A DNA stretch of 64,000 nucleotides from the NCBI RefSeq assembly GCF_000196435.1, contig NC_010161.1:1116001-1180000 (forward strand), written 5' to 3'. This document shows, piece by piece, positions 1 through 56,455 of this stretch (position 1 is its first letter; the number at the start of each line of letters is the position of its first letter). This DNA comes from Bartonella tribocorum CIP 105476. GTDB lineage: Bacteria; Pseudomonadota; Alphaproteobacteria; Rhizobiales; Rhizobiaceae. Below the pieces are notes generated by a model. The model had not been told where the DNA came from. It ran no database searches and saw only the letters and a program-made list of their open reading frames with translations. Made by a program: the position numbers and the translations under genes.

Positions 1-3000
1 GATAGCACCGAAAGCAATTGGAGTGATAATGCTAACAACACTTGTGATGGTCAAGAAGTTCGTATTCAACAGATTAATCTGTTTGATTTAGAAAACAGTC
101 AAATTGATTGGGGCGCTTATAAAGAACGAGGACAAGCCGTCCTTAAAGAGCAACCGAAAAAAAAGCTTTTAGATCATCAGATAGAAGCGCTTGAAAGAGT
201 TTGTGAAGGTTTACAAGAAGCAGACCGTGGCAAGCTTATTATGGCATGTGGTACGGGTAAAACATTCACCAGTCTTAAGATAGCAGAAACCATAGCAGGA
301 AAAGGCAAGCGTGTGTTGTTTTTAGTGCCCTCCCTTGCTTTGATGTCACAAACAATCCGTGAATGGACCCTTGATACAGAAATCCCCTTGCGTTCCTTTG
401 CGGTGTGTTCGGATACACAAGTAGGCAAGCGTCGTAAAGGCAAACATGATGATGAATCTGGTCTTGATGCATCAGATCTTGTCTTGCCGGCGACCACGGA
501 TTCACAAGAGCTTGCGCGTAAAGCCAATAAGACCTCTCTTGATGTGATGACGGTGGTCTTTTCAACTTATCATTCCATTCAAGTGATTTCGGATGCACAA
601 AAGGAATATGATTTACCCGAATTTGATTTAATCATTTGCGATGAAGCGCATAGAACAACTGGGGTTGTGTTAGGAACAGACAAGCATGAATCTGAATTTA
701 TCAAGGTTCATGATAACAGCATCATTCGGGGTAAAAAACGTCTGTATATGACTGCAACGCCTAAGATCTTTGCTGATAGTGCTAAAAAACAAGCCCATGA
801 AATGAATGGCATTTTAGCGTCTATGGATGATGAAGCCCTCTATGGAAAAAATCTTTACACCTATACATTCTCAAAAGCCGTTAAGAATGAACTCTTAGTT
901 CCTTATAAGATTATTATCTTAGGCGTTAATGAAGAGGAAGTGAGTGAATCCATTCAACATCTGATGACCGATGAGAATTATGAACTTACTCTTGATGATA
1001 AAACCAAAATCATAGGCTGTTATCAAGCTCTTAGCAAAATAGATCTAAAAGTTGATCTGAGTGATGACCCTAACCCTATGCGTCGGGCTTTGGCTTTTTG
1101 TAAAGATATCAAGACTTCTGAACGTATCCGTGACACATTCAATTCTCAAGAAATACAGAAAGAATTATATAATCTTCATAAGCTCTATAAAGAGACGCCG
1201 CCTCTTCAGTGTACCTTTGCTCATATTGATGGAACGCAAAGTGCCAAGAAGCGCAATGAAGCCCTTGATTGGTTAAAGGAAGATGCGGGGGAAAATACTT
1301 GTCGTGTGCTGACCAATGTAAGATGTCTTTCTGAGGGTGTTGATGTTCCTGCTCTTGATGCGATCATGTTTTTACACCCGCGCAAAAGCCAAGTGGATGT
1401 GATACAGGCGGTGGGGCGTATCATGCGCCGTGCCAAAGGCAAGAAAAGAGGCTATATCATTTTACCCGTTGGGGTGCCGGCTGGGATTTCTGCTGAAGAG
1501 GCTTTAAAATACAACAAGAGATACAGTGTTGTCTGGCAAGTGATCAATGCTTTGCTTGCTCATGATGAGAATTTCGAAATCACCCTTAACCAGATGATTT
1601 TAGGGCAAGACGTTAGTGATGTTTTGGAGATTAGCGCCTTAAAGAGCATGACAGCGGTTGAGGATAAAATCTATGTTTATGAGAAACCAGAAAGCGCGGG
1701 GCTTGAGATTGGAAAAGCAGCCTATGAACCACAAAAATACATTCATAGTGTTACAGGAAGATTACCCTTTTATAAAGAGTTTCCCAATGCCCTTAAAACC
1801 CTTTTGGCTAAGAAATTTACCCTTGCCGATTACTGGGGCATATGGGCGGGCAATGTTGCTGAAATTGCTCAAAACCATATCAATCGTCTTAAAGATATAC
1901 TTTCTGATGAAACCAGTGAAGCTTTTCATGCTTTTGAGAGCTTTCACAAAGAACTCAAAAACAACTTAAACAGTGAAATAAAACAAGAGGAAGCGCTTGA
2001 GATGTTAGCACAACATCTTGTGACGCGTCCCGTATTTGAAGCCTTGTTTGATGGCAATGAATTTGTGCAAAACAATGCCATTTCGCAAGCGATGGAAAAG
2101 ATTTTAGCTGAGTTGGATAAAACCAATATCAAGCAAGTATCAAAAGAGTTACAAGAGTTTTATGACAGTGTGAAATTCCGTGCCTCTGGGATTACCTCCC
2201 CCCAAGCAAGACAAAACCTTATTATCAAGCTTTATGAAGATTTTTTTACCAAGGCATTTAAGAAAACTACGGATAGGCTTGGGATTGTTTATACGCCCGT
2301 TGAGGTTGTTGATTTTATCATTCATTCTGTTGATGATGTATTGCGGAATGAGTTTGGAAAAAGCCTTGGGTCACGTGGTGTTTCTATTCTTGACCCTTTC
2401 ACTGGAACTGGAACCTTTATCACAAGGCTTTTACAATCCAATCTCATCAAACCAGAGGATATGGAATATAAGTTCCGTCATGATATCCATGCCAATGAGA
2501 TTGTTTTGCTTGCTTATTACATAGCAGCGATTAACATTGAATCGACTTATCATAGTCTTATGAAAGGTGAATATATCCCTTTCAAGCATATTGGTTTGAC
2601 CGATACGTTCCGAATGCTTGAAGAGAAGAACCTGCTACAGGAATTATTCAAAGAAAACAGTGAATATTTAGAGCATCAAAAGAAACTGGATATCAAAGTT
2701 ATCCTTGGTAACCCTCCTTATTCAACAAAGCAAAAAAACGAAAATGATAATGCAAAGAATACTCCTTATCCTATTTTAGATAAACGTATTAGTGAAACTT
2801 ATGCTGCTCATTCAAAAGCAACCAATATGCAAGCTCTTTACGATAGCTATATCCGTGCTATACGCTGGGCTAGTGACCGTATTGGTAATGCTGGGGTAAT
2901 CGGATTTGTTACAAATGCCGGTTTTATTACTGGACATTCTATGGATAGTTTACGCAAATGCCTCGTTGAGGAATTTTCAAGCCTTTATATTTTCCATTTG

Positions 3001-4602
3001 CGGGGGAATGCTCGGACTTCTGGAGAACAACGTAAGAAAGAAAGTGGTGGAATTTTTGGTTCTGGCTCTCGTGCCCCTATAGCGATTTCTATTTTGGTTA
3101 AAAATCCAAATGCACAGCAGCATGGTAAGATATATTTTCGTGATATTGGCGACTATCTCAATAGAGAAGAAAAACTCACGATAATTGAAAAACTTAGAAG
3201 TATTGATGGCATTACACGAAGCAAAAAAGGTTGGCAAATAATAAAACCGGATAGACATAATGATTGGCTTAGTCAACGCGATGATAGTTTCAAGACGTTT
3301 CTAGCTTTAGGTGTTAAAAAAGGGCATGATCAAAAGCTTTTTGAAAATTTTTCTCGTGGTATTATGACAAGCCGTGATGCTTGGGCATATAACTCAAGCC
3401 GTGAAACACTAGCAAAAAATATGCGTAATATGATTGCCTTTTATAACAGTGAGGTTGAACGTTTTAATAATAGCTATTCACATGCTGATCATAAGTTACG
3501 TACCAATGCTATAGATAGTTTCGTAAACTCAGATGAAAGAAAAATCAGTTGGAGTTATAATCTCAAACGAGACTTGGTAAAAGGAAAGTCTTTCAACTTT
3601 GAAGAAGCTTGCCTTACACAAAGTCTTTATCGCCCTTTTACACGACAGTGGCTTTATTGTGATGCTGCTCTAAATTGCGATGGCGCTTATCAGATGCGAA
3701 TATTTCCGATAGGACAAGCGGTTGAAAACAGAATGATACAAATTACAGGCATAGGAGCAAAGAAAGACTTTTCTGTGCTTATGACTAAAGTTGTATCTGA
3801 TGTTAATATGATGGAAGGTGGTAGTCAATGCTTTCCACGCTATATTTACGAAGACACTACGGTTTCAAAAAATAAAAACAAGGAACAATCCCATTTATTT
3901 ACGAATTCTACAGAAAATAGTAAAACAGCTGGTTTGCAACGCCGTGATGCTATTACTGATGAAGGATTAGCACATTTTAAAGCTGCTTATCCTAATGAAA
4001 AAATCGCTAAAGATGATTTATTCTATTATGTTTACGGTTTACTTCATTCAAAAGATTATCGCTCTCGTTATGCTGATAACCTTTCTAAAGAACTGCCTCG
4101 TATCCCTTGTGTAAAGAGTACTGATGATTTTTGGAAGTTTGTAACAGCAGGACGTGAACTCGGTCATTTGCACGTGAATTATGAAACTGTAGAGCCGTAT
4201 CCAGTAACTTTTAAAAAGGGTAATCCAAAATTTACAGAGATCTCTAATCCCGAAAAATTCTATTATGTGACTGAAATGAAATTCGCAAAAATTAAGAATA
4301 GTAAGGAAAAGGATAAATCAACAGTTATTTATAATAGCAATATTACCATAACAGATATCCCTCTTGAAGCTTATAAGTATATCGTCAATGGAAAACCCGC
4401 TCTTGAATGGGTTATGGGGCGTCAATGTGTAAAGACTGATAAAAAGAGTGGCATTGTTAATGATGCTAATCGCTATGCTGTTGAAACCGTTGGCAACCCT
4501 GCCTACCCTCTAGAATTGTTTCAAAGGGTTATTACGGTAAGTTTAGAGACAATCAAAATTGTTAAGAATTTACCAAAATTAGAAATAAGAGAAACTGAAT
4601 AA
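1..4602 (+). CDS. Type ISP-like restriction-modification enzyme, 5' end cut by window (copy L)
   Basis: The open frame runs from base 1 and corresponds to residues 125-1657 of the complete copy at 17485-22458, to which its protein is identical; the Mrr-like nuclease domain lies before the window. Seen: Walker A ACGTGKT (about residues 206-212), DEAH (about 337), TATP (about 374), motif VI QAVGRIMRR (about 593), N6-adenine methylase motif I DPFTGTGTF (about 922) and catalytic NPPY (about 1028). Known of the family: single-chain Type ISP enzymes translocate on DNA, methylate adenine and cut. It forms one arm of a giant inverted repeat with copy A and is followed by a terminator and a micro-ORF. 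A helicase-methylase defence protein of another class is the alternative. Confidence 0.85.
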   Translation, partial: DSTESNWSDNANNTCDGQEVRIQQINLFDLENSQIDWGAYKERGQAVLKEQPKKKLLDHQIEALERVCEGLQEADRGKLIMACGTGKTFTSLKIAETIAGKGKRVLFLVPSLALMSQTIREWTLDTEIPLRSFAVCSDTQVGKRRKGKHDDESGLDASDLVLPATTDSQELARKANKTSLDVMTVVFSTYHSIQVISDAQKEYDLPEFDLIICDEAHRTTGVVLGTDKHESEFIKVHDNSIIRGKKRLYMTATPKIFADSAKKQAHEMNGILASMDDEALYGKNLYTYTFSKAVKNELLVPYKIIILGVNEEEVSESIQHLMTDENYELTLDDKTKIIGCYQALSKIDLKVDLSDDPNPMRRALAFCKDIKTSERIRDTFNSQEIQKELYNLHKLYKETPPLQCTFAHIDGTQSAKKRNEALDWLKEDAGENTCRVLTNVRCLSEGVDVPALDAIMFLHPRKSQVDVIQAVGRIMRRAKGKKRGYIILPVGVPAGISAEEALKYNKRYSVVWQVINALLAHDENFEITLNQMILGQDVSDVLEISALKSMTAVEDKIYVYEKPESAGLEIGKAAYEPQKYIHSVTGRLPFYKEFPNALKTLLAKKFTLADYWGIWAGNVAEIAQNHINRLKDILSDETSEAFHAFESFHKELKNNLNSEIKQEEALEMLAQHLVTRPVFEALFDGNEFVQNNAISQAMEKILAELDKTNIKQVSKELQEFYDSVKFRASGITSPQARQNLIIKLYEDFFTKAFKKTTDRLGIVYTPVEVVDFIIHSVDDVLRNEFGKSLGSRGVSILDPFTGTGTFITRLLQSNLIKPEDMEYKFRHDIHANEIVLLAYYIAAINIESTYHSLMKGEYIPFKHIGLTDTFRMLEEKNLLQELFKENSEYLEHQKKLDIKVILGNPPYSTKQKNENDNAKNTPYPILDKRISETYAAHSKATNMQALYDSYIRAIRWASDRIGNAGVIGFVTNAGFITGHSMDSLRKCLVEEFSSLYIFHLRGNARTSGEQRKKESGGIFGSGSRAPIAISILVKNPNAQQHGKIYFRDIGDYLNREEKLTIIEKLRSIDGITRSKKGWQIIKPDRHNDWLSQRDDSFKTFLALGVKKGHDQKLFENFSRGIMTSRDAWAYNSSRETLAKNMRNMIAFYNSEVERFNNSYSHADHKLRTNAIDSFVNSDERKISWSYNLKRDLVKGKSFNFEEACLTQSLYRPFTRQWLYCDAALNCDGAYQMRIFPIGQAVENRMIQITGIGAKKDFSVLMTKVVSDVNMMEGGSQCFPRYIYEDTTVSKNKNKEQSHLFTNSTENSKTAGLQRRDAITDEGLAHFKAAYPNEKIAKDDLFYYVYGLLHSKDYRSRYADNLSKELPRIPCVKSTDDFWKFVTAGRELGHLHVNYETVEPYPVTFKKGNPKFTEISNPEKFYYVTEMKFAKIKNSKEKDKSTVIYNSNITITDIPLEAYKYIVNGKPALEWVMGRQCVKTDKKSGIVNDANRYAVETVGNPAYPLELFQRVITVSLETIKIVKNLPKLEIRETE

Positions 4603-4641
4603 CTTATAAAGCATGCTCACATAATGGGTATGATAAACGCA

Positions 4642-4686
4642 TAAGGGGTATAGAGCTTATAACCATAATCTATACCTCTTTTGTTA
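4642..4686 (+). terminator. Rho-independent terminator after the RM gene (copy L)
   Basis: The hairpin arms AAGGGGTATAGA and TCTATACCTCTT surround a 14-nt loop and are followed by TTGTT. The same hairpin follows the RM gene in all four copies. In copy B the stem is perfect GGGGTATAGA/TCTATACCCC, so the pairing is kept while the sequence changes. Confidence 0.7.
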
Positions 4687-4723
4687 AGTTTATTACATCT
4701 AATCTTTAAAAGGATAATTTGTC

Positions 4724-4864
4724 ATGCGTTATTCTAAAAAGAAAAAACTTGCACTTTTAGATACTCTCATTTGGATTGCTTTAAGACTTTTAAGAAACCC
4801 CATCTTAAATAAAATTAGATTTTTTTACATTGCCTTTAAGAGGTTATATCGTAATCTAAAATGA
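4724..4864 (+). CDS. 46-aa basic micro-protein downstream of RM gene (copy L)
   Basis: A short frame starts MRYSKKKK and ends KRLYRNLK. It has an AAAAGGA ribosome binding site 9 nt upstream of the ATG. The protein is strongly basic at both ends with a short hydrophobic stretch (TLIWIALRLL) in the middle. It lies after the RM terminator on the same strand and inside the inverted-repeat cassette. The copy in island B has diverged but keeps frame and length with mostly conservative changes, and the copy in island C carries a 54-bp in-frame deletion. This pattern supports a real gene. I do not recognise the family; a small membrane or nucleic-acid-binding accessory of the RM enzyme is a guess. 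Confidence 0.55.
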   Translation: MRYSKKKKLALLDTLIWIALRLLRNPILNKIRFFYIAFKRLYRNLK

Positions 4865-4911
4865 GTGCTTTATTGTTTTCAAAAGCTTTGTTTAAAGAGA
4901 GTTATATATAT

Positions 4912-5117
4912 TCATTTTGCTTATAGGTTTTGAAGGTGTAAAAACCGTCAAAACCCCCTCAAAACGTATATTATTGGTTGAATTTAGAGGTTGTGTTATC
5001 AATATGGGTTGTTTTTTTAAGGTCTATAAAATCTTAACATATTGAAATATAATGTTTTTACTTTTTATCGTTTTTTTACATAATAGCAGCAACCCTCAAA
5101 ACTCAAAACCCCGTCAA
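4912..5117. repeat. Inverted-repeat arm flanking the RM cassette (copy L, downstream arm)
   Basis: This roughly 205-bp sequence is rich in CAAAACCCC-type runs (GTCAAAACCCCCTCAAAACG and similar). In copy A the same sequence occurs on both sides of the RM cassette in opposite orientation (16970-17175 and 22748-22960). Only the downstream arm of copy L is inside the window. Confidence 0.8.
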
Positions 5118-5910
5118 AACTCATAACTATAATGATCTTGATAGCATCTCTTATGAGTTACAAGCTATCTTTTGAAAAGCTTTAAAGGATCACATGATTT
5201 TCATAAAGCACGTTGTAATCATTCTCTAAAATCATAAGGTTATCATTCAAAAGAACTGATAAAAATTCATAAAAGGGATTTTGATAACGTAATCAGTTTT
5301 TAATTTCATACGCTTTTCATAAGACACGTGTTAATCACTCACTAAAAATATAATTTTATCTTTTAAAAAGAACTAATCAAAATAACAAAAGCCTATTAAA
5401 AGGGACTTTGCTAATCTCTATAATTATCAATCTCTCTTTAGATATTTTCATAACAGTCTATAAATCGTAATTATCCTATTTATCGTTTCTCTTATGAAAA
5501 TGAAAAATGATGCCATGGCTATAAAGCATATAACAGCTATAAAGAATGCATAAAAACAGTAGCTTTGTTTGAATAAAGCAAAAATGCAAATGAATGCATT
5601 GGTTATAAGAGCGCGGTGCCTATTAAGATAGTTCAAATGATAAATGCGTTATAAACAAAATTCACAAAAAAATTAAAATTCATTTAGTGAAAAAAACTGA
5701 TAGTTTATAAAGATAAAAATACGCATTATGAGAGCGTTTCTAAATATTATAAATGTATAGATTCAAAAAACAACGCAATCGTTTTATAAAGCCCATAATA
5801 TAGCTTTAAAAGCACATAAATATAAAAGAAGCAATTCATAAGCACATGATATTATCAATACATAATGTATCTAAAAAAATACAAAAAATATCAAAAAAAT
5901 AAAATATTAA
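5118..5910. other. AT-rich intergenic stretch of the island (copy L)
   Basis: It contains an imperfect tandem duplication of roughly 130 bp (about 5180-5410; both units carry a CACG(T)TGTAATCA-like segment and then AAAAGAACTGAT). On the minus strand a weak 62-codon hydrophobic frame lies at 5448-5636, identical in copy A. No gene can be supported with confidence. Confidence 0.4.
5448..5636 (-). CDS. Possible small hydrophobic protein (copy L)
   Basis: A 62-aa frame with two hydrophobic stretches (CYAFFIAVICFIAMASFFIF-like) is oriented against the RM and beta-helix genes. The last ~35 codons stay open in copy C (near 56840-56942, same stop) and mostly in copy B, where the end is frameshifted. 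Substitutions are not clearly synonymous and I see no good ribosome binding site. It may be a small membrane protein or chance conservation of non-coding DNA. Confidence 0.22.
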   Translation of the reverse strand: MNYLNRHRALITNAFICIFALFKQSYCFYAFFIAVICFIAMASFFIFIRETINRIITIYRLL

Positions 5911-5939
5911 TTGACAATAAATACGTATTTTGTTATATA
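5911..5939 (+). promoter_or_regulatory. Sigma-70-type promoter with palindromic operator (copy L)
   Basis: TTGACA at 5911-5916 and TATATA at 5934-5939 are separated by 17 nt. The spacer holds a perfect 12-bp palindrome, AAATACGTATTT. The arrangement is conserved in copies A and C and, as a remnant, in copy B. It probably drives the structured leader and the beta-helix operon, with a repressor site between the promoter boxes. Confidence 0.7.
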
Positions 5940-5944
5940 AATAA

Positions 5945-6187
5945 TCAAGTGATGAAAAACACTTTAAACAGTAAGCGGATAGGTTACGAAACAATCTTTC
6001 CAAAGCTTTTAAAACTGACTATCTTTTATGCTTTAATTAGCATATATGATGATTTTGTCGGGTGTGGTCACACCATACAATACTCTTTATGAGAAAAGTG
6101 TGACGACGGACTTACTGCCGTGTTTTTCAACGCCCGGCTCCCTTATAGGGTTGTCAATGAAAAACGTATAATCAGTAAGGTTTAAAT
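5945..6187 (+). ncRNA. Structured 5' leader with alternative pairings (copy L)
   Basis: The leader has an upstream element TGAAAAAC (5953-5960) plus CAGTAAG (5969-5975), a central anti-element CTTACTG (6111-6117) plus GTTTTTCA (6122-6129), and a downstream copy TGAAAAAC (6158-6165) plus CAGTAAG (6173-6179). The last one overlaps the AAGG ribosome binding site of the next gene. A separate stem pairs GTCACAC (6067-6073) with GTGTGAC (6098-6104), and CCC (6140) pairs with GGG (6148). Copy C changes all of these with compensation. The central strand can pair with either outer copy, so a translational on/off switch is inferred. No known riboswitch class is recognised. Confidence 0.7.
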
Positions 6188-6847
6188 ATGAAAAATATCT
6201 CAAAAAACACCCCCATTAATAAGAAAAAAACATCTAAAAAATATGAGTTTACTGGCGAAATGGATTTTGTGACTGGTCTCATATTATACCGTATACGTGC
6301 TTTAAGAGATTTTGGGGATGTCAAAGCGGGCGATCTTGGGGGGTATATTGAAAACGAAAGTAACTTATCTCACAAAGGCAATTGCTGGGTGTATGACAAA
6401 GCGCGCGTCTTTCAAAATGCAAGGGTTTCAGGCAATGCTAAAGTAAAAAGCTTTTTTGTTGACGTTTGTGGTAATGCAAGAATTTATGGTAATGCTATTT
6501 TTGAAGGCATGTTATTAAAGGACAATGCAAAGCTTTATGGCAATGCTCATGTTAGCAATGCCGTTGTAATTGAAGGTAATGCTAAAATTTATGATAACGC
6601 CCGCGTCACTAATCATGCTCATATTTGTGATGGCTCGCGTGTTTTTGATGATGCCGTGGTTTGTGGCGCTCTTATCTCTGGCGATTCTTATGTTCATAGC
6701 GCCGCCTCTTTAACTGCTGATGATCATATTTGGGATGAGGCATATCCAGAATTTGGGAGTGAAGATGATTATTACCGTCATGAATATTATGCTGATTGTG
6801 AGGGGTATTATGACGATGATAACGAATATGAAAATGATGCTGCGTAA
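6188..6847 (+). CDS. YdcK-like hexapeptide-repeat protein 1 (copy L)
   Basis: This 219-aa protein has a conserved N-terminal module (KKYEF..., RIRALRDFGDVKAGDLGGYI, then GNCWVYDKA) followed by YGNA/NARV-type imperfect hexapeptides predicted to form a left-handed beta-helix. It ends with an acidic tyrosine-rich tail (EDDYYRHEYYADCEGYYDDD). E. coli YdcK, a putative acyltransferase, has the same N-terminal arrangement as I remember it. No catalytic histidine can be assigned. The start is fixed by AAGG 8-12 nt upstream, inside the RNA switch. It is the first gene of a beta-helix operon, and its protein is identical in copy A. Confidence 0.75.
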   Translation: MKNISKNTPINKKKTSKKYEFTGEMDFVTGLILYRIRALRDFGDVKAGDLGGYIENESNLSHKGNCWVYDKARVFQNARVSGNAKVKSFFVDVCGNARIYGNAIFEGMLLKDNAKLYGNAHVSNAVVIEGNAKIYDNARVTNHAHICDGSRVFDDAVVCGALISGDSYVHSAASLTADDHIWDEAYPEFGSEDDYYRHEYYADCEGYYDDDNEYENDAA

Positions 6848-6851
6848 ATAA

Positions 6852-6885
6852 CGCGCGGGCGCGGCGGGGGCGCCCCTCTTTAAAA
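6852..6885 (+). terminator. GC-rich hairpin element between beta-helix genes
   Basis: The stem GGGCGC/GCGCCC encloses a G-rich loop and is followed by CTCTTTAAA. It is strikingly GC-rich against an AT-rich surround. Near-identical copies lie after each of the first three beta-helix genes in copies L, A and C. It may be an intra-operon attenuator or a REP-like element, and it marks a deletion joint in copy A. Confidence 0.55.
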
Positions 6886-6929
6886 ATCTCATTCTAAAAT
6901 TTATCAAATATAAACTTAGGGAGTTACCT

Positions 6930-7703
6930 ATGTCCACTATAACTGTATCTAAAAAATATGAATTGACTAATGAAAATCACACTTTTGAAGGGATTACTGT
7001 ACACCGCATTCGTGCTTTAAGAGATTTTGATGATGTTAAGGCGGGGGCATTAGGTGGTTTTATTGAAAATGAAAGCAATCTCTCTCATGATGGCAATTGC
7101 TGGGTTTACGATAATGCTACCGTTTTTTGCAATGCCGTCGTTTCTGATAATGCAAAAATACGTAATGACGCCATTATTGCTAGGGGGTCTAAAGTTTATG
7201 GGAATGCCGTGGTTTGTGATAAGGCATGGGTATTCGGTCATGATGCTAGCATTTATGACAATGCAAAAATTAGTAACAATGCTAGGATCTGTGGTCTAGT
7301 TTATGGCAATGCCATGGTTTGTGATAATGCTAATGTTTCTCCTAATGCACATATTTATGATAATGCCCGTGTATATGAAAATGCTCATGTGAGTGGCTTT
7401 GTTTATGGGAATTCCCATGTTTATGGTAAATCACGCATTTATGGGGGGGCGTGTATTTATGGCAATGCCCATGTCTTTTGTAATGCTTGGATTAAGAGTT
7501 TTGCAAGTATTTTTGATGATGCAAAGGTTTCTGGCTCGGCTCGGGTGGGGTCCTTTGCAAGAATTTATGAAAATGCAAAGGTCTATGGTAAATCCAATAT
7601 TGATCATGATGTACAAATCTATGGTAATGCCGTGGTTAATAGTCGTGAAAAAATTACGAATGATATTTGTGATGATAACCAGTCTATAAAAGACGCTGCG
7701 TAA
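6930..7703 (+). CDS. YdcK-like hexapeptide-repeat protein 2 (copy L)
   Basis: A 257-aa protein: N-terminal module KKYELTNEN, RIRALRDFDDVKAGALGGFI and NLSHDGNCWVYDNA (about residues 8-70), then about 25 imperfect hexapeptides of the VYGNAxV type. It has a short hydrophilic end, and the first stretch has no signal peptide. Start: GGGAG 8 nt before the ATG. Copy A has lost this gene through an 856-bp deletion; copy C keeps it with two or three residue changes. Probably a soluble trimeric beta-helix protein; the substrate is unknown. Confidence 0.72.
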   Translation: MSTITVSKKYELTNENHTFEGITVHRIRALRDFDDVKAGALGGFIENESNLSHDGNCWVYDNATVFCNAVVSDNAKIRNDAIIARGSKVYGNAVVCDKAWVFGHDASIYDNAKISNNARICGLVYGNAMVCDNANVSPNAHIYDNARVYENAHVSGFVYGNSHVYGKSRIYGGACIYGNAHVFCNAWIKSFASIFDDAKVSGSARVGSFARIYENAKVYGKSNIDHDVQIYGNAVVNSREKITNDICDDNQSIKDAA

Positions 7704-7708
7704 ATAAT

Positions 7709-7736
7709 GCGCGGGCGCGGCGGGGGCGCCCCCTTT
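7709..7736 (+). terminator. GC-rich hairpin element, second copy
   Basis: GGGCGC/GCGCCC hairpin followed by CCCTTTTAAA, directly after the second beta-helix stop codon. Together with the element at 6852 it provided the homology for the 856-bp loss in copy A. Confidence 0.55.
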
Positions 7737-7784
7737 TAAATTCTTCATTTTAAAATTTAATCTTTTTTATAAAGGAATTGTGCC

Positions 7785-8363
7785 ATGCAAAAAAAGTTTG
7801 CACTCACAAATGAAACGCGTGTATTTGGTAATCATACCCTTTATCGTATCCAAGCATTAAAAGACTTTTCTGATATTAAAGCTGGTGCCTTGGGGGGCTT
7901 TATCGAAAAGGAAGATAACCTCTCTCATGATGGCAATTGCTGGGTTTATGATGATGCTCTTGTGTTTAAAAATGGTCACGTTTATGAAAACGCAAGGGTT
8001 TTTGGCAAGGCTGTCGCTTGTGGTCATATCTATGGTCATGCCCGCGTTTATGAGAATGCTATCGCTGCTGGCTATATTTATGATAATGCGCATGTTTATG
8101 GCAATGCCGTTGTTTCTGATAATTCCCGTGTCTATGGCAATGCTCATGTGTATGGCAAGGCTATTATTTATGATAATGCCTATGTTTATGACAATGCTAG
8201 GGTTTATGAAAACGCGCGTATAGCAAATGACGTGCATATTTATGAAAATGCTCATATCCATGGCATTGCTGTCATTCGTGAAAATGTCGGCGGGTCTACT
8301 AAAATAAAAACCTATACTGAACGTCTCTCTCCTTATGGCGAGTTAGAAATTGTCTGGGTTTAA
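7785..8363 (+). CDS. YdcK-like hexapeptide-repeat protein 3 (copy L)
   Basis: 192 aa. The N-terminal module (KKFALTNETRVFGNHTLYRI, KAGALGGFIEKEDNLSHDGN) is followed by about 17 hexapeptides (YGNAVV, YDNAYV, YENARI) and a distinct non-repeat end GSTKIKTYTERLSPYGELEI. The ribosome binding site AAAGGA precedes the ATG by 9 nt. Copies A and C differ at a few residues (KDFSDI to KDFADV, GHARVYE to GHACVYE or GHARVYD). Role unknown; same predicted beta-helix fold as its neighbours. Confidence 0.72.
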   Translation: MQKKFALTNETRVFGNHTLYRIQALKDFSDIKAGALGGFIEKEDNLSHDGNCWVYDDALVFKNGHVYENARVFGKAVACGHIYGHARVYENAIAAGYIYDNAHVYGNAVVSDNSRVYGNAHVYGKAIIYDNAYVYDNARVYENARIANDVHIYENAHIHGIAVIRENVGGSTKIKTYTERLSPYGELEIVWV

Positions 8364-8375
8364 TCAATAAAGCAG

Positions 8376-8400
8376 CGGCGGGCGCGGCGGGGGCGCCTGC
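8376..8400 (+). terminator. GC-rich hairpin element, third copy
   Basis: GGGCGC/GGCGCC inverted arms lie 12 bp after the stop of beta-helix gene 3, followed by TGCTTTC. It belongs to the same family as the elements at 6852 and 7709. Confidence 0.5.
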
Positions 8401-8468
8401 TTTCAAAATAAATTTTCCATTTCAAATTTTATCAACTGTTTATCACATTAGATTGTGAGGGTACTCCT

Positions 8469-9248
8469 ATGTGCAAAAAATACGAATTAACCAGCGAAAT
8501 CAAAAAAATCAAACATGCTCTTACGCGAAATATCACAAGCCTTTATCGCATTCGGGCTTTAAGAGATTTTGATGATATAAAAGCGGGTGCTTTAGGCGGT
8601 TTTATCGAAAAGGAAGTCAACCTATCCCATGATGGCAATTGCTGGGTCTATGATGATGCTTGTATCTATGGTCATGCCCGTGTTTATGATGATGCAAAAA
8701 TACGGCATTATTCGCAAGTCTGTGGTCTCGTTTATGGCAATGCTGAGGTCTATGGCAAGGCTTTTGTCTCTCAATATGCAAAGATTTATGATCAGGCTTG
8801 TGTTTATGGGAGTGCTCATGTGTATGGCAATGTGTATGGCAATGCTCATGTGAGTGGTGCTGCCCGCGTTCTTGCTGATGCTCATATTTATGACCATGCC
8901 CATGTTTCTTATGATGCTACGGTTTTTAGTTATGCACGCGTCTATGGTCATGCTAGGGTTTGTGGCTCTGCTTGCATTTATAGCCATGCCAAAATTTATA
9001 ATTATGCTGTGATTAATGGTCGTGCAAAGATTTATGGCAAGGTCTAAGGCAATGCGCGCGTGGGGGGCTCTTGTGAGGTTTATGGCTCTGTTTATGGCAA
9101 TGCAAAAATCTTACATTGTGCAACAATCTGGGGGCGTGCTTATGGCAATGCAACAATCAATACAAAAAGCAAAGCAAAGTTGGTTCCCAAAAATTGTGAG
9201 GTTTATCAAAGCGATAATGTCGTTAAGATTATTGATAAAACAGAATAA
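8469..9248 (+). pseudogene. YdcK-like hexapeptide-repeat protein 4, broken by a nonsense codon (copy L)
   Basis: The intact form in copies A and C is 259 aa: N-terminal module KKYELTSEI, YRIRALRDFDDIKAGALGGF and NLSHDGNCWVYDDA, then more than 25 hexapeptides and a short lysine-rich end (NTKSKAKLVPKNCEVYQSDN). In copy L the codon TAT after GGCAAGGTC is TAA (9045-9047), which truncates the protein to 192 aa. The remaining frame to 9248 is still open and matches the other copies, so the change is recent. The truncated beta-helix could still fold. Start: GTGAGGG about 10 nt before the ATG. Confidence 0.7.
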
Positions 9249-13686: not shown

Positions 13687-14466
13687 TTATTCTGTTTTAT
13701 CAATAATCTTAACGACATTATCGCTTTGATAAACCTCACAATTTTTGGGAACTAACTTTGCTTTGCTTTTTGTATTGATTGTTGCATTGCCATAAGCACG
13801 CCCCCAGATCGTTGCACAATGTAAGATTTTTGCATTGCCATAGACAGAGCCATAAACCTCACAAGAGCCCCCCACGCGCGCATTGCCATAGACCTTGCCA
13901 TAAATCTTTGCACGACCATTAATCACAGCATAATTATAAATTTTCGCATGGCTATAAATACAAGCAGAGCCACAAACCCTAGCATGACCATAGACGCGTG
14001 CATAACTAAAAACCGTAGCATCATAAGAAACATGGGCATGGTCATAAATATGAGCATCAGCAAGAACGCGGGCAGCACCACTCACATGAGCATTGCCATA
14101 AACATTGCCATACACATGAGCACTCCCATAAACACAAGCCTGATCATAAATCTTTGCATATTGAGAGATAAAAGCCTTGCTATAGACCTCAGCATTGCCA
14201 TAGACGAGACCACAGACTTGAGAATAATGCCGTATTTTTGCATCATCATAAACACGGGCATGACCATAGACACAAGCCTCATCATAGACCCAGCAATTGC
14301 CATCATGGGATAGGTTGACTTCCTTTTCGATAAAACCGCCTAAAGCACCCGCTTTTATATCATCAAAATCTCTTAAAGCCCGAATGCGATAAAGGCTTGT
14401 GATATTTCGCGTAAGAGCATGTTTGATTTTTTTGATTTCACTGGTTAATTCGTATTTTTTGCACAT
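13687..14466 (-). CDS. YdcK-like hexapeptide-repeat protein 4, intact (copy A)
   Basis: A 259-aa protein with the conserved N-terminal module (KKYELTSEI, FDDIKAGALGGFIEKE) and a long run of hexapeptides (VYGNAEV, IYDQACV, VYGSAHV). The lysine-rich end finishes VVKIIDKTE. It is the full-length version of the gene that is cut by a stop codon in copy L. It is last in the operon and converges on the terminator at 13590. No membrane segment or signal peptide is seen. Confidence 0.75.
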   Translation of the reverse strand: MCKKYELTSEIKKIKHALTRNITSLYRIRALRDFDDIKAGALGGFIEKEVNLSHDGNCWVYDEACVYGHARVYDDAKIRHYSQVCGLVYGNAEVYSKAFISQYAKIYDQACVYGSAHVYGNVYGNAHVSGAARVLADAHIYDHAHVSYDATVFSYARVYGHARVCGSACIYSHAKIYNYAVINGRAKIYGKVYGNARVGGSCEVYGSVYGNAKILHCATIWGRAYGNATINTKSKAKLVPKNCEVYQSDNVVKIIDKTE

Positions 14467-14535
14467 AGGAGTACCCTCACAATCTAATGTGATAAACAGT
14501 TGATAAAATTTGAAATGGAAAATTTATTTTGAAAG

Positions 14536-14557
14536 CAGGCGCCCCCGCCGCGCCCGC
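14536..14557 (-). terminator. GC-rich hairpin element (copy A)
   Basis: Same GGGCGC/GCGCC family element between beta-helix genes 3 and 4. The flank on the gene-3 side differs from copies L and C (AAATAAAATGC in place of CAATAAAGCAGC), showing local exchange at this element. Confidence 0.5.
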
Positions 14558-14579
14558 ATTTTATTTACGTTACATTAGG

Positions 14580-15158
14580 TTAGACCCATACAATTTCTAA
14601 CTCACCATAAGGAGAGAGACGTTCAGTATAGGTTTTTATTTTAGTAGAGCCGCCGACATTTTCACGAATAACAGCAATGCCATGGATATGAGCATTTTCA
14701 TAAATATGCACGTCATTTGCTATACGAGCGTTTTCATAAACCCTAGCATTGTCATAAACATAAGCATTATCATAAATAATAGCCTTGCCATAGACATGAG
14801 CATTGCCATAGACACGGGAATTATCAGAAACAACGGCATTGCCATAAACATGCGCATTATCATAAATATAGCCAGCAGCGATAGCATTCTCATAAACGCA
14901 GGCATGACCATAGATATGACCACAAGCGACAGCCTTGCCAAAAACCCTTGCGTTTTCATAAACGTGACCATTTTTAAACACAAGAGCATCATCATAGACC
15001 CAGCAATTGCCATCATGAGAGAGGTTATCTTCCTTTTCGATAAAGCCCCCCAAGGCACCAGCTTTAACATCAGCAAAGTCTTTTAATGCTTGGATACGAT
15101 AAAGGGTATGATTACCAAATACACGCGTTTCATTTGTGAGTGCAAACTTTTTTTGCAT
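14580..15158 (-). CDS. YdcK-like hexapeptide-repeat protein 3 (copy A)
   Basis: 192 aa, same architecture as the copy L gene: N-terminal module KKFALTNETRVF, ALKDFADVKAGALGGFIEKE, about 17 hexapeptides and a non-repeat end GSTKIKTYTERLSPYGELEI. In copy A it directly follows gene 1 because gene 2 has been deleted. The upstream region is a hybrid of two spacers yet keeps the TAAAGGAATTGTGCC ribosome binding context, so translation should be unaffected. Confidence 0.72.
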   Translation of the reverse strand: MQKKFALTNETRVFGNHTLYRIQALKDFADVKAGALGGFIEKEDNLSHDGNCWVYDDALVFKNGHVYENARVFGKAVACGHIYGHACVYENAIAAGYIYDNAHVYGNAVVSDNSRVYGNAHVYGKAIIYDNAYVYDNARVYENARIANDVHIYENAHIHGIAVIRENVGGSTKIKTYTERLSPYGELEIVWV

Positions 15159-15209
15159 GGCACAATTCCTTTATAAAGAAGATTAAATTTTAGAATGAGA
15201 TTTTTAAAG

Positions 15210-15235
15210 AGGGGCGCCCCCGCCGCGCCCGCGCG
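15210..15235 (-). terminator. GC-rich hairpin element at the deletion joint (copy A)
   Basis: The 5' side matches the element after gene 1 of copy L and the 3' side passes into the leader of gene 3 (AATCTTCTTTATAAAGGAATTG). It is a recombinant element left by loss of 856 bp including gene 2. Confidence 0.65.
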
Positions 15236-15239
15236 TTAT

Positions 15240-15899
15240 TTACGCAGCATCATTTTCATATTCGTTATCATCGTCATAATACCCCTCACAATCAGCATAA
15301 TATTCATGACGGTAATAATCATCTTCACTCCCAAATTCTGGATATGCCTCATCCCAAATATGATCATCAGCAGTTAAAGAGGCGGCGCTATGAACATAAG
15401 AATCGCCAGAGATAAGAGCGCCACAAACCACGGCATCATCAAAAACACGCGAGCCATCACAAATATGAGCATGATTAGTGACGCGGGCGTTATCATAAAT
15501 TTTAGCATTACCTTCAATTACAACGGCATTGCTAACATGAGCATTGCCATAAAGCTTTGCATTGTCCTTTAATAACATGCCTTCAAAAATAGCATTACCA
15601 TAAATTCTTGCATTACCACAAACGTCAACAAAAAAGCTTTTTACTTTAGCATTGCCTGAAACCCTTGCATTTTGAAAGACGCGCGCTTTGTCATACACCC
15701 AGCAATTGCCTTTGTGAGATAAGTTACTTTCGTTTTCAATATACCCCCCAAGATCGCCCGCTTTGACATCCCCAAAATCTCTTAAAGCACGTATACGGTA
15801 TAATATGAGACCAGTCACAAAATCCATTTCGCCAGTAAACTCATATTTTTTAGATGTTTTTTTCTTATTAATGGGGGTGTTTTTTGAGATATTTTTCAT
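15240..15899 (-). CDS. YdcK-like hexapeptide-repeat protein 1 (copy A)
   Basis: A 219-aa protein identical to the copy L product: N-terminal YdcK-like module, about 15 hexapeptides and an acidic tail with many Tyr, Asp and Glu residues. It is first in the operon, and its ribosome binding site AAGG is inside the switchable leader at 15900-16142. The acidic tail is unique to gene 1 and conserved in copy C, which suggests a partner-binding function not shared by genes 2-4. Confidence 0.75.
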   Translation of the reverse strand: MKNISKNTPINKKKTSKKYEFTGEMDFVTGLILYRIRALRDFGDVKAGDLGGYIENESNLSHKGNCWVYDKARVFQNARVSGNAKVKSFFVDVCGNARIYGNAIFEGMLLKDNAKLYGNAHVSNAVVIEGNAKIYDNARVTNHAHICDGSRVFDDAVVCGALISGDSYVHSAASLTADDHIWDEAYPEFGSEDDYYRHEYYADCEGYYDDDNEYENDAA

Positions 15900-16142
15900 A
15901 TTTAAACCTTACTGATTATACGTTTTTCATTGACAACCCTATAAGGGAGCCGGGCGTTGAAAAACACGGCAGTAAGTCCGTCGTCACACTTTTCTCATAA
16001 AGAGTATTGTATGGTGTGACCACACCCGACAAAATCATCATATATGCTAATTAAAGCATAAAAGATAGTCAGTTTTAAAAGCTTTGGAAAGATTGTTTCG
16101 TAACCTATCCGCTTACTGTTTAAAGTGTTTTTCATCACTTGA
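15900..16142 (-). ncRNA. Structured 5' leader with alternative pairings (copy A)
   Basis: Sequence-identical inverted copy of 5945-6187. Upstream element CAGTAAG is at 16112-16118, central anti-element CTTACTG at 15970-15976 and ribosome-binding-site element CAGTAAG at 15908-15914 (all read on the minus strand). The copy C version shows the compensatory changes. Confidence 0.7.
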
Positions 16143-16147
16143 TTATT

Positions 16148-16176
16148 TATATAACAAAATACGTATTTATTGTCAA
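16148..16176 (-). promoter_or_regulatory. Promoter with AAATACGTATTT operator (copy A)
   Basis: On the minus strand TTGACA, a 17-nt spacer containing the 12-bp palindrome, then TATATA. It is identical to the copy L promoter and drives the beta-helix operon leader. Confidence 0.7.
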
Positions 16177-16969
16177 TTAATATTTTATTTTTTTGATATT
16201 TTTTGTATTTTTTTAGATACATTATGTATTGATAATATCATGTGCTTATGAATTGCTTCTTTTATATTTATGTGCTTTTAAAGCTATATTATGGGCTTTA
16301 TAAAACGATTGCGTTGTTTTTTGAATCTATACATTTATAATATTTAGAAACGCTCTCATAATGCGTATTTTTATCTTTATAAACTATCAGTTTTTTTCAC
16401 TAAATGAATTTTAATTTTTTTGTGAATTTTGTTTATAACGCATTTATCATTTGAACTATCTTAATAGGCACCGCGCTCTTATAACCAATGCATTCATTTG
16501 CATTTTTGCTTTATTCAAACAAAGCTACTGTTTTTATGCATTCTTTATAGCTGTTATATGCTTTATAGCCATGGCATCATTTTTCATTTTCATAAGAGAA
16601 ACGATAAATAGGATAATTACGATTTATAGACTGTTATGAAAATATCTAAAGAGAGATTGATAATTATAGAGATTAGCAAAGTCCCTTTTAATAGGCTTTT
16701 GTTATTTTGATTAGTTCTTTTTAAAAGATAAAATTATATTTTTAGTGAGTGATTAACACGTGTCTTATGAAAAGCGTATGAAATTAAAAACTGATTACGT
16801 TATCAAAATCCCTTTTATGAATTTTTATCAGTTCTTTTGAATGATAACCTTATGATTTTAGAGAATGATTACAACGTGCTTTATGAAAATCATGTGATCC
16901 TTTAAAGCTTTTCAAAAGATAGCTTGTAACTCATAAGAGATGCTATCAAGATCATTATAGTTATGAGTT
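16177..16969. other. AT-rich intergenic stretch (copy A)
   Basis: Same content as 5118-5910, inverted. It includes the weak 62-codon hydrophobic frame at 16451-16639 on the plus strand and the ~130-bp imperfect duplication. No firm gene. Confidence 0.4.
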
Positions 16970-17175
16970 TTGACGGGGTTTTGAGTTTTGAGGGTTGCTG
17001 CTATTATGTAAAAAAACGATAAAAAGTAAAAACATTATATTTCAATATGTTAAGATTTTATAGACCTTAAAAAAACAACCCATATTGATAACACAACCTC
17101 TAAATTCAACCAATAATATACGTTTTGAGGGGGTTTTGACGGTTTTTACACCTTCAAAACCTATAAGCAAAATGA
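16970..17175. repeat. Inverted-repeat arm, downstream side of RM cassette (copy A)
   Basis: It pairs with 22748-22960 in opposite orientation. Shared blocks are AAAACGTATATT, TCAATATG, TTTTTTTAAGGTCTATAAAAT and CAATATAATG-like segments plus runs of CAAAACCCC. The arms bracket the micro-ORF and RM gene as one ~6-kb cassette. Confidence 0.8.
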
Positions 17176-17222
17176 ATATATATAACTCTCTTTAAACAAA
17201 GCTTTTGAAAACAATAAAGCAC

Positions 17223-17363
17223 TCATTTTAGATTACGATATAACCTCTTAAAGGCAATGTAAAAAAATCTAATTTTATTTAAGATGGGGTTTCTTAAAAG
17301 TCTTAAAGCAATCCAAATGAGAGTATCTAAAAGTGCAAGTTTTTTCTTTTTAGAATAACGCAT
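17223..17363 (-). CDS. 46-aa basic micro-protein downstream of RM gene (copy A)
   Basis: Identical to 4724-4864. It lies 39 bp beyond the RM terminator on the same strand, with AAAAGGA before the ATG, inside the inverted-repeat cassette. Charged N-terminus (RYSKKKK), hydrophobic centre and basic C-terminus (FKRLYRNLK). Family not recognised. Confidence 0.55.
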   Translation of the reverse strand: MRYSKKKKLALLDTLIWIALRLLRNPILNKIRFFYIAFKRLYRNLK

Positions 17364-17401
17364 GACAAATTATCCTTTTAAAGATTAGATGTAATAAACT
17401 T

Positions 17402-17445
17402 AACAAAAGAGGTATAGATTATGGTTATAAGCTCTATACCCCTTA
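17402..17445 (-). terminator. Rho-independent terminator after the RM gene (copy A)
   Basis: AAGGGGTATAGA/TCTATACCTCTT hairpin followed by TTGTT on the minus strand, 40 bp past the RM stop codon. Confidence 0.7.
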
Positions 17446-17484
17446 TGCGTTTATCATACCCATTATGTGAGCATGCTTTATAAG

Positions 17485-20400
17485 TTATTCAGTTTCTCTT
17501 ATTTCTAATTTTGGTAAATTCTTAACAATTTTGATTGTCTCTAAACTTACCGTAATAACCCTTTGAAACAATTCTAGAGGGTAGGCAGGGTTGCCAACGG
17601 TTTCAACAGCATAGCGATTAGCATCATTAACAATGCCACTCTTTTTATCAGTCTTTACACATTGACGCCCCATAACCCATTCAAGAGCGGGTTTTCCATT
17701 GACGATATACTTATAAGCTTCAAGAGGGATATCTGTTATGGTAATATTGCTATTATAAATAACTGTTGATTTATCCTTTTCCTTACTATTCTTAATTTTT
17801 GCGAATTTCATTTCAGTCACATAATAGAATTTTTCGGGATTAGAGATCTCTGTAAATTTTGGATTACCCTTTTTAAAAGTTACTGGATACGGCTCTACAG
17901 TTTCATAATTCACGTGCAAATGACCGAGTTCACGTCCTGCTGTTACAAACTTCCAAAAATCATCAGTACTCTTTACACAAGGGATACGAGGCAGTTCTTT
18001 AGAAAGGTTATCAGCATAACGAGAGCGATAATCTTTTGAATGAAGTAAACCGTAAACATAATAGAATAAATCATCTTTAGCGATTTTTTCATTAGGATAA
18101 GCAGCTTTAAAATGTGCTAATCCTTCATCAGTAATAGCATCACGGCGTTGCAAACCAGCTGTTTTACTATTTTCTGTAGAATTCGTAAATAAATGGGATT
18201 GTTCCTTGTTTTTATTTTTTGAAACCGTAGTGTCTTCGTAAATATAGCGTGGAAAGCATTGACTACCACCTTCCATCATATTAACATCAGATACAACTTT
18301 AGTCATAAGCACAGAAAAGTCTTTCTTTGCTCCTATGCCTGTAATTTGTATCATTCTGTTTTCAACCGCTTGTCCTATCGGAAATATTCGCATCTGATAA
18401 GCGCCATCGCAATTTAGAGCAGCATCACAATAAAGCCACTGTCGTGTAAAAGGGCGATAAAGACTTTGTGTAAGGCAAGCTTCTTCAAAGTTGAAAGACT
18501 TTCCTTTTACCAAGTCTCGTTTGAGATTATAACTCCAACTGATTTTTCTTTCATCTGAGTTTACGAAACTATCTATAGCATTGGTACGTAACTTATGATC
18601 AGCATGTGAATAGCTATTATTAAAACGTTCAACCTCACTGTTATAAAAGGCAATCATATTACGCATATTTTTTGCTAGTGTTTCACGGCTTGAGTTATAT
18701 GCCCAAGCATCACGGCTTGTCATAATACCACGAGAAAAATTTTCAAAAAGCTTTTGATCATGCCCTTTTTTAACACCTAAAGCTAGAAACGTCTTGAAAC
18801 TATCATCGCGTTGACTAAGCCAATCATTATGTCTATCCGGTTTTATTATTTGCCAACCTTTTTTGCTTCGTGTAATGCCATCAATACTTCTAAGTTTTTC
18901 AATTATCGTGAGTTTTTCTTCTCTATTGAGATAGTCGCCAATATCACGAAAATATATCTTACCATGCTGCTGTGCATTTGGATTTTTAACCAAAATAGAA
19001 ATCGCTATAGGGGCACGAGAGCCAGAACCAAAAATTCCACCACTTTCTTTCTTACGTTGTTCTCCAGAAGTCCGAGCATTCCCCCGCAAATGGAAAATAT
19101 AAAGGCTTGAAAATTCCTCAACGAGGCATTTGCGTAAACTATCCATAGAATGTCCAGTAATAAAACCGGCATTTGTAACAAATCCGATTACCCCAGCATT
19201 ACCAATACGGTCACTAGCCCAGCGTATAGCACGGATATAGCTATCGTAAAGAGCTTGCATATTGGTTGCTTTTGAATGAGCAGCATAAGTTTCACTAATA
19301 CGTTTATCTAAAATAGGATAAGGAGTATTCTTTGCATTATCATTTTCGTTTTTTTGCTTTGTTGAATAAGGAGGGTTACCAAGGATAACTTTGATATCCA
19401 GTTTCTTTTGATGCTCTAAATATTCACTGTTTTCTTTGAATAATTCCTGTAGCAGGTTCTTCTCTTCAAGCATTCGGAACGTATCGGTCAAACCAATATG
19501 CTTGAAAGGGATATATTCACCTTTCATAAGACTATGATAAGTCGATTCAATGTTAATCGCTGCTATGTAATAAGCAAGCAAAACAATCTCATTGGCATGG
19601 ATATCATGACGGAACTTATATTCCATATCCTCTGGTTTGATGAGATTGGATTGTAAAAGCCTTGTGATAAAGGTTCCAGTTCCAGTGAAAGGGTCAAGAA
19701 TAGAAACACCACGTGACCCAAGGCTTTTTCCAAACTCATTCCGCAATACATCATCAACAGAATGAATGATAAAATCAACAACCTCAACGGGCGTATAAAC
19801 AATCCCAAGCCTATCCGTAGTTTTCTTAAATGCCTTGGTAAAAAAATCTTCATAAAGCTTGATAATAAGGTTTTGTCTTGCTTGGGGGGAGGTAATCCCA
19901 GAGGCACGGAATTTCACACTGTCATAAAACTCTTGTAACTCTTTTGATACTTGCTTGATATTGGTTTTATCCAACTCAGCTAAAATCTTTTCCATCGCTT
20001 GCGAAATGGCATTGTTTTGCACAAATTCATTGCCATCAAACAAGGCTTCAAATACGGGACGCGTCACAAGATGTTGTGCTAACATCTCAAGCGCTTCCTC
20101 TTGTTTTATTTCACTGTTTAAGTTGTTTTTGAGTTCTTTGTGAAAGCTCTCAAAAGCATGAAAAGCTTCACTGGTTTCATCAGAAAGTATATCTTTAAGA
20201 CGATTGATATGGTTTTGAGCAATTTCAGCAACATTGCCCGCCCATATGCCCCAGTAATCGGCAAGGGTAAATTTCTTAGCCAAAAGGGTTTTAAGGGCAT
20301 TGGGAAACTCTTTATAAAAGGGTAATCTTCCTGTAACACTATGAATGTATTTTTGTGGTTCATAGGCTGCTTTTCCAATCTCAAGCCCCGCGCTTTCTGG

Positions 20401-31161: not shown

Positions 31162-31287
31162 ATGACGCATAACCCCGCCCATTCTAGTGAAGTTCTAAAA
31201 GTAGCTTTTTTAGAAGAAATGGGGATAACAATAAAAAAATTAACGTATCGTCTTCATATAACAAAATACGTATTTATTGTCAAATAA
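31162..31287 (+). pseudogene. HigA antitoxin cut by the island B boundary
   Basis: HNPAHSSEVLKVAFLEEMGI followed by TIKKLTYRL is the start of a HigA/XRE antitoxin. At about 31247 the sequence becomes island DNA (CATATAACAAAATACGTATT), and the frame stops at 31287. Ribosome binding site AAAGGAATG lies before the ATG. This pins the left edge of the island B remnant. Confidence 0.65.
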
Positions 31288-56215: not shown

Positions 56216-56455
56216 AATTAAAACCTTGATGTTAATGACGTTTCTATTGACACTCGATAAGAGCGCCGGGCGCTAGAAACACGGCATCAAGTCCGTTGTT
56301 ACGCTTTTCTCATAAGAGTATTGTATGGCGTAACTACACCCGACAAACTCATTATATGCTAATCATAACATAAAAGACAGTCAGTATTTTAAAAGATGGG
56401 AAAGATTGTTTCGTAATCTACCCGCTTGATGTTTAAGTGTTTCTATCACTTGATT
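56216..56455 (-). ncRNA. Structured 5' leader with alternative pairings (copy C, diverged)
   Basis: Minus-strand elements: upstream TAGAAAC (56445-56439) plus CATCAAG (56431-56425); central CTTGATG (56291-56285) plus GTTTCTA (56280-56274); downstream TAGAAAC (56246-56240) plus CATCAAG (56231-56225), which overlaps the AAGG ribosome binding site. Stem GTTACGC/GCGTAAC replaces GTCACAC/GTGTGAC of copy L, and CTC/GAG replaces CCC/GGG. Every pairing keeps complementarity through double changes. Confidence 0.72.

Follow-up and report, generated by a model that had tools for sequence, protein, structure and literature searches.

Anatomy and genomic setting of the leader

Why does the leader in front of a row of solenoid genes in Bartonella tribocorum carry the same two short elements twice, with the complements of both between them? 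Within the window, i.e. the whole 64,000-nt stretch of DNA that was analysed, the direct copies a1-b1 and a2-b2 flank a central part that contains the antisense elements b' and a' (Table 1). The original prediction had read this arrangement as a new RNA switch that buries a ribosome binding site, and it had pointed to a second leader, copy C, in which the elements and two further stems (GTCACAC/GTGTGAC to GTTACGC/GCGTAAC and CCC/GGG to CTC/GAG) are changed in a compensatory manner. The duplicated elements and their central complement lie in the window where they had been placed, and all compensated changes of copy C are present. The core by itself folds as a three-way junction with -28.8 kcal/mol. 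The 3' end of b2, which contains the AAG of the AAGG, is 8 nt away from the ATG at 6188, and the first gene is followed by further solenoid genes at 6930-7703, 7785-8363 and 8469-9047.

Table 1. Features of the leader and of its copies in window coordinates, with the kind of evidence for each.
Feature	Position	Strand	Description and evidence
Putative sigma-70-like promoter	5911..5939	+	TTGACA 5911-5916, TATATA 5934-5939, spacer 17 nt; sequence
Palindrome AAATACGTATTT	5919..5930	+	Between -35 and -10; sequence
a1 element TGAAAAAC	5953..5960	+	Loop of 5-bp hairpin AAGTG/CACTT; sequence, fold, pair counts
b1 element CAGTAAG	5969..5975	+	CGG directly 3'; sequence, code test, pair counts
RF02221 (sRNA-Xcc1) core, three-way junction	6057..6146	+	cmscan, pair counts, fold
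Core helix P1	6057-6065/6130-6138	+	
Core helix P2	6067-6073/6098-6104	+	Inner stem 6083-6085/6091-6093
Core helix P3	6106-6109/6118-6121	+	
b' antisense element CTTACTG	6111..6117	+	P3 loop; sequence, code test, pair counts
a' antisense element GTTTTTCA	6122..6129	+	P3-P1 junction; sequence, pair counts
a2 target element TGAAAAAC	6158..6165	+	Sequence, pair counts
b2 target element CAGTAAG	6173..6179	+	Overlaps Shine-Dalgarno AAGG (6177-6180); sequence, code test
First downstream gene, 219-aa YdcK-type beta-solenoid protein	6188..6847	+	Pfam PF18836
Identical leader copy	15900..16142	-	Same over 243 nt; precedes identical gene 15240-15899
Copy C, leader with different code	56217..56453	-	TAGAAAC/CATCAAG twice, complements CTTGATG/GTTTCTA between; precedes solenoid gene 55445-56215

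The promoter hexamers resemble the sigma-70 consensus. With up to 3 mismatches allowed, the promoter 31-mer occurs at 12 sites in the same genome; RF02221-type leaders follow 11 of these, and the palindrome between the hexamers is found at all 12, although the site on the small contig C1 deviates from it at one position. By analogy with the operator Oc4 that is annotated at the c4 promoter of phage P1, this palindrome is a possible operator. The twelfth promoter site (31253-31283, minus strand) has one mismatch, an intact palindrome, and no solenoid-type leader behind it.

A perfect inverted repeat of 6,903 nt carries the leader in one arm and the identical copy in the other; the copy is a recent duplicate within this repeat and, because of this position, not independent evidence. 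The arms (1-6903 and 15184-22086, 100% complementary) carry a Type ISP restriction-modification gene in addition to the leader, and three shorter inverted repeats of 1,354, 884 and 693 nt lie between them. Runs of YdcK-type beta-solenoid paralogues are found at 6188-9047 and 13687-15899 (minus strand), and they match phrog_5070 and phrog_7964, as does the product of the first downstream gene; both of these families are of unknown function.

In the complete genome (2.64 Mb, two contigs), 23 copies of the leader are present, with RF02221 scores of 42.9-55.2 bits and two copies above the cut-off. The 18 non-redundant copies carry 15 different b' codes, and the duplex energy is best with the own target for 15 of the 18 cores downstream and likewise for 15 of 18 upstream. 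Within this genome, sites for the exact joint a'/b' code of the window leader are confined to the three copies that are identical. Three leaders of the same genome are mosaics, with a code that differs from that of the core at the upstream site (L045, L046) or at both sites (L039).

Code matching and covariation among Bartonella leaders

For the genus Bartonella, 92 loci were examined, of which 91 could be parsed (all except L053) and 11 were redundant, leaving 80 non-redundant leaders. The exact reverse complement of the b' 7-mer was sought within 170 nt upstream and downstream, anchored on the elements. A perfect complement was found upstream in 75/80 leaders, downstream in 75/80, and on both sides in 71/80, while cores of another code found such a site in only 0.7% of cases upstream and 0.2% downstream. 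The remaining leaders deviate in distinct ways: the downstream site of L032 involves a G-U pair and is thus inexact, L113, L125 and L141 have no downstream site at all, an exact upstream site is absent from L045, L072, L073 and L126, and L039 has neither of the two exact flanking sites. In total, b' represents 29 codes in the 80 leaders, which become 56 joint codes when a' is included, and a leader tree built without the elements requires 51 or more changes of the b' code. Within this diversity, the first two letters of b' are invariably CT, and their partner AG forms the start of the Shine-Dalgarno sequence. A Shine-Dalgarno AGG with the AG supplied by b2 is present in 69/75 leaders, and an ATG follows 8-10 nt after b2 in 66/75.

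The pairings covary strongly. Cells in which both partners of a pair have changed number 222 in the upstream-central pairing (shuffle mean 74), 212 in the central-downstream pairing (shuffle mean 82) and 78 in the junction fold (shuffle mean 24). For these three helix sets, none of 500 shuffles reaches any of the observed values, be it for double-change cells, percentage of paired cells or covariation score. The core helices are paired in 99.6% of cells across the 80 leaders, with ten pairs that show double changes, and exceed the 500 shuffles in all measures. Two coarser counts, of the pairs that show at least one double change and of the different pair types, fail to exceed the shuffles for the upstream-central pairing (311/500 and 451/500) and for the central-downstream pairing (485/500 and 498/500), because the columns of these two pairings are so variable. 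Moreover, MAFFT splits b2 in some rows, and the a2-b2 pair counts thus understate the central-downstream pairing. The leader observation is hence real, strongly covarying and functional-looking: three covarying elements, as originally predicted, are upheld by the shuffle tests and the swapped-code control, the central strand indeed has two mutually exclusive partners, and the burial of the ribosome binding site agrees with the AG that b2 contributes, so that control of this site by alternative pairing is supported.

Relationship to Rfam families

The only strong Rfam match of the leader is RF02221 (sRNA-Xcc1), with which the core aligns over model positions 1-87 of 87, i.e. with the full-length fold and the conserved letters. 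The cmscan score of 43.2 bits (E 1.6e-6) does not reach the gathering cut-off of 53. Judged by its predicted fold, the leader belongs with RF02221, though formally below the cut-off, and the idea of a new RNA class is not supported in view of this match, which is weak here and above threshold in sibling leaders; the original prediction had itself named a match to a known Rfam class as refuting. The family was found in 50/71 Bartonella genomes, in 38/71 above the cut-off, and in 58/398 sampled genomes of the phylum, representing 37/212 genera (the own genome counted).

Membership in RF01695, the C4 family, was rejected on the basis of its covariance model, which gave no match at E up to 10 in 5890-6260 and none in the 71 Bartonella genomes, in a search that matched no control genome either; C4 of phage P1 itself scores 68.8 bits with this model. 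The fold is not new, and the mechanism considered below is of a known kind that is, as far as searched, newly assigned to RF02221. What is new is the claim that the RNAs of the RF02221 family are C4-type antisense systems, each with two target sites that covary. In the open-licence literature searched, no paper connects Xcc1 with Bartonella, nor 'C4 antisense RNA' with Bartonella, and one paper, in its available passages, gives C4 and sRNA-Xcc1 next to each other as two distinct Rfam annotations but makes no connection between them there.

Other genera, viral contigs and downstream genes

The matching of codes extends beyond Bartonella. From 90 RF02221 loci of other genera, 86 were used (4 were left out due to short flanks or redundancy), and the score of the cores was 14.50 with their own upstream regions versus 10.76 with swapped ones (highest of 10,000 permutations 11.49), and 11.65 versus 9.68 downstream (highest of 10,000 permutations 10.33). 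A strict shuffle at each locus (p<0.01), for which 85 of the 90 distant loci were used and about one of the 85 is expected by chance, supported an upstream site at 45/85, a downstream site at 19/85, and neither at 36/85; some of the weakest Rfam matches among these distant loci look false. A CGG directly follows b1 in 48/64 distant loci, as compared to 8% at random places. A hairpin that presents a1 was considered as strong evidence and rejected, since it is found in 62/64 distant loci but also at 67% of random places, and the CGG after b1 is therefore the better mark.

Contigs from IMG/VR were selected by the internal core pattern only. Among the matches listed, 85 were reduced to 72 by removal of 13 redundant ones, and 14 of these 72 have a Bartonella-type P3 whereas 58 do not. 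For the latter 58 of the listed matches, own scores exceeded every permutation both upstream (14.05 versus 10.69 swapped) and downstream (13.33 versus 10.24 swapped). The strict shuffle supported an upstream site in 32 and a downstream site in 38 of the 72 listed viral matches, and neither in 25. The RF02221 cut-off was passed by 8 of 10 viral loci that were scanned.

Downstream open reading frames were chosen by a script that uses a Shine-Dalgarno score and were not curated. In Bartonella, the Pfam scan covered 70 of 78 distinct proteins (8 short or doubtful ORFs were left out), and the leaders precede genes for AntA (36), Rha (8) or YdcK solenoid proteins (22). Among 29 downstream proteins of other genera, Bro-N (5), Rha (3), SymE (2), P22_AR_N (1) and KilA-N (1) were found, with anti-repressor-type domains in at most 10 of the 29. 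The 64 viral downstream proteins among the matches listed include AntA (13), Rha (9), Bro-N (9), KilA-N (8), P22_AR_C (8) and P22_AR_N (6), counts that may overlap. The leader thus recurs in front of anti-repressor genes, and the window leader precedes a row of solenoid genes, not an anti-repressor gene.

Not every unit has a downstream target. The Bartonella units L113, L125 and L141 consist of the core and a matching upstream site, and instead of a downstream target they have a similar AT-rich sequence containing TTGACAG after the core. Several distant loci resemble this layout. Second targets for units without downstream site were sought nearby, with nothing convincing found there, and the exact joint code of such units gave only one further site, which is located in genome G052 and corresponds to the code of L141, a unit of genome G032.

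A probable C4-type antisense leader

Which known system does this arrangement resemble? In the annotated record of phage P1, the order is a promoter with operator, a1, b1, c4, a2, b2 and icd, and by our reading of its sequence the loop of P3 holds b', the junction holds a', and b2 adjoins the Shine-Dalgarno sequence. C4 of the phages P1 and P7 (RF01695, with c4-a1b1 RF03163) therefore shares with the leader the order of parts, the junction topology, the position of b2 at the Shine-Dalgarno sequence, and the upstream promoter. The next gene in phage P1 lies on the anti-repressor route (icd-ant); siblings of the leader precede AntA or Rha genes, and the window leader itself precedes a solenoid gene. 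Differences exist as well: P2 of the Bartonella leader is longer and has a conserved ATACAATAC internal loop, the sequences of the elements differ, and phage P1 has icd before ant where the window leader has solenoid genes. According to the accessible passages of a paper on C4-like RNAs, RNase P releases C4 from a longer precursor, after which the loops of C4 base-pair with target mRNAs so that ribosome binding sites become partly covered (PMC5320573). Both steps are described for phage P1, and for the leader they are predictions.

For sRNA-Xcc1, the available part of one report describes an 88-nt RNA that was mapped by RACE (PMC2996969). This RNA has the same core fold and conserved letters as the leader, and its 88 nt approximately correspond to the core without target sites; in the passages at hand, the sRNA-Xcc1 literature regards it as a free sRNA whose targets were predicted, and does not mention flanking target sites, and the Rfam model comprises only the core. 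The Group 1 C4-like sRNAs of Acinetobacter baumannii resemble the leader in that they occur in many copies per genome, have a variable a' and are called phage-derived, whereas they were found by a motif of the RF01695 type, and the accessible passages discuss the specificity of a', not two covarying flanking sites (PMC5320573).

Based on the part order and topology of phage P1, the RNase P cutting of C4 as retold in the literature, and the length of sRNA-Xcc1, we consider it very likely that the leader is of phage origin and contains an antisense RNA of the C4 type, which would here control YdcK-like solenoid genes. One promoter would give rise to a transcript that carries a1-b1, the three-way-junction RNA with the RF02221 fold, and a2-b2 over the Shine-Dalgarno sequence. 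The core would expose both antisense elements, b' in the loop of P3 and a' where P3 meets P1. Either as a free RNA or within the same transcript, it would pair through a'-a2 and b'-b2 and thereby switch off translation of the next gene. In the fresh or intact precursor, a1-b1 would hold the core, so that the release or processing of the core would set the repressed state. As the a and b codes diversify while the fold stays, copies within one genome would largely ignore each other.

Alternative explanations

What alternatives exist for a C4-type mechanism? The original prediction envisaged a translational switch. In a purely cis-acting form of it, b1 as the partner of b' would mean on and b2 would mean off, a signal or processing would shift the balance, and the core would never become a separate RNA. 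In nested foldings, which were calculated without pseudoknots, b' of the full leader pairs with b1 in 68/71 cases and helix P1 forms in only 1/71, and when the upstream arm is omitted, b2:b' pairing exceeds 0.5 in 47/75 and helix P1 forms in 28/75. These modelled foldings fit a role of a1-b1 as a holder until release and equally well the cis model, for which the joint presence of the three elements on one transcript in most Bartonella leaders also speaks. The alternative pairing of this model stands, but the core is a self-contained junction of C4 topology that is conserved and covarying, a feature that would be superfluous in a simple two-state switch, L113, L125, L141 and several distant loci retain core and upstream site without a downstream site, and sRNA-Xcc1 was found as a free RNA according to the part of the report cited above (PMC2996969), so that we regard a purely cis-acting switch as unlikely. 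The triggered switch of the original prediction is not supported, and nothing pointed to a ligand. With regard to a riboswitch aptamer, no match in the window attained the gathering score of an Rfam family, and the alternating letters are hypervariable.

A transcription attenuator or riboswitch with a terminating 3' hairpin would be expected to show a U-run, and the longest T-run within 18 nt after b2 is 4 in the 75 leaders, which makes a plain terminator unlikely; an intrinsic terminator after b2 was rejected on these grounds. In genome G023, which we take to be B. henselae Houston-1, 11 RF02221 leaders are located within 39 kb (372.8-411.6 kb) in front of AntA/Rha-type proteins, the type being assigned by eye. 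Such an attenuator or riboswitch has been proposed for the Brt RNAs of Bartonella henselae, which in the available passages are multi-copy leaders before regulator genes and resemble our leader in the genus, the length of about 230 nt and the position before a regulatory gene (PMC5387305). The downstream protein family is a different one, as the Brt partner trp1 is BH12870, a member of an HTH family of 108-152 aa, where the leaders studied here are followed by solenoid, AntA or Rha types, and the loci differ as far as can be told. The words Rfam, Xcc1 and antirepressor do not occur in the text of that paper. An identity of the leaders with Brt RNAs was rejected by the locus tag and protein type of trp1 and the positions of the leaders in G023, the comparison being one of loci and proteins, and an attenuator appears quite improbable. 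The sRNA-Xcc1 papers assume an sRNA that acts in trans on host or virulence targets, which would render the flanking complements incidental; target predictions are published for sRNA-Xcc1 and its Xylella relatives in the passages available, yet the tests on Bartonella, on other genera and on viral contigs show that the variable part of the RNA tracks the two sites that flank it, and the window leader's joint code is confined to its own identical copies in the genome, which makes this explanation highly improbable. Finally, direct repeats might have been generated by gene conversion, with the complement arising by chance. The locus is indeed heavily duplicated, and two of the three window copies are identical. 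Conversion between direct repeats, however, cannot yield a matching reverse complement between them, and the 29 codes, whose changes involve the three elements in step in most leaders, as well as the swapped-code control speak against a duplication artefact, the likelihood of which is negligible.

Implications and further observations

A C4-type reading of the leader suggests how the sRNA-Xcc1 family may work and that its target lies next to it; the literature passages at hand present this RNA as a free sRNA for which targets have only been predicted. The leaders also constitute a natural collection of matched and selective antisense/target codes that is useful for studying how the specificity of RNA immunity evolves, and YdcK-type solenoid proteins are pointed to as cargo that is locked in the same way as phage anti-repressors. 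More speculatively, and in our view less probably than not, RF02221 could be a large second class of C4-type immunity RNAs in Pseudomonadota and their phages, with fast-diversifying a and b codes on a fixed scaffold and with Bartonella genomes holding repertoires of codes that are largely blind to each other. Units without a downstream target could then be stand-alone RNA immunity genes that silence incoming phages of the same code in trans.

Two RF02221 units, L082 and L102, are located in front of SymE-type proteins, with PF08845 being clearest in L082, and the accessible part of a study on Xanthomonas integron cassettes reports the same pairing of RF02221 with SymE (PMC12444791). A BLAST search of an annotated phage collection gave no match. 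Six Bartonella plasmids carry relatives.
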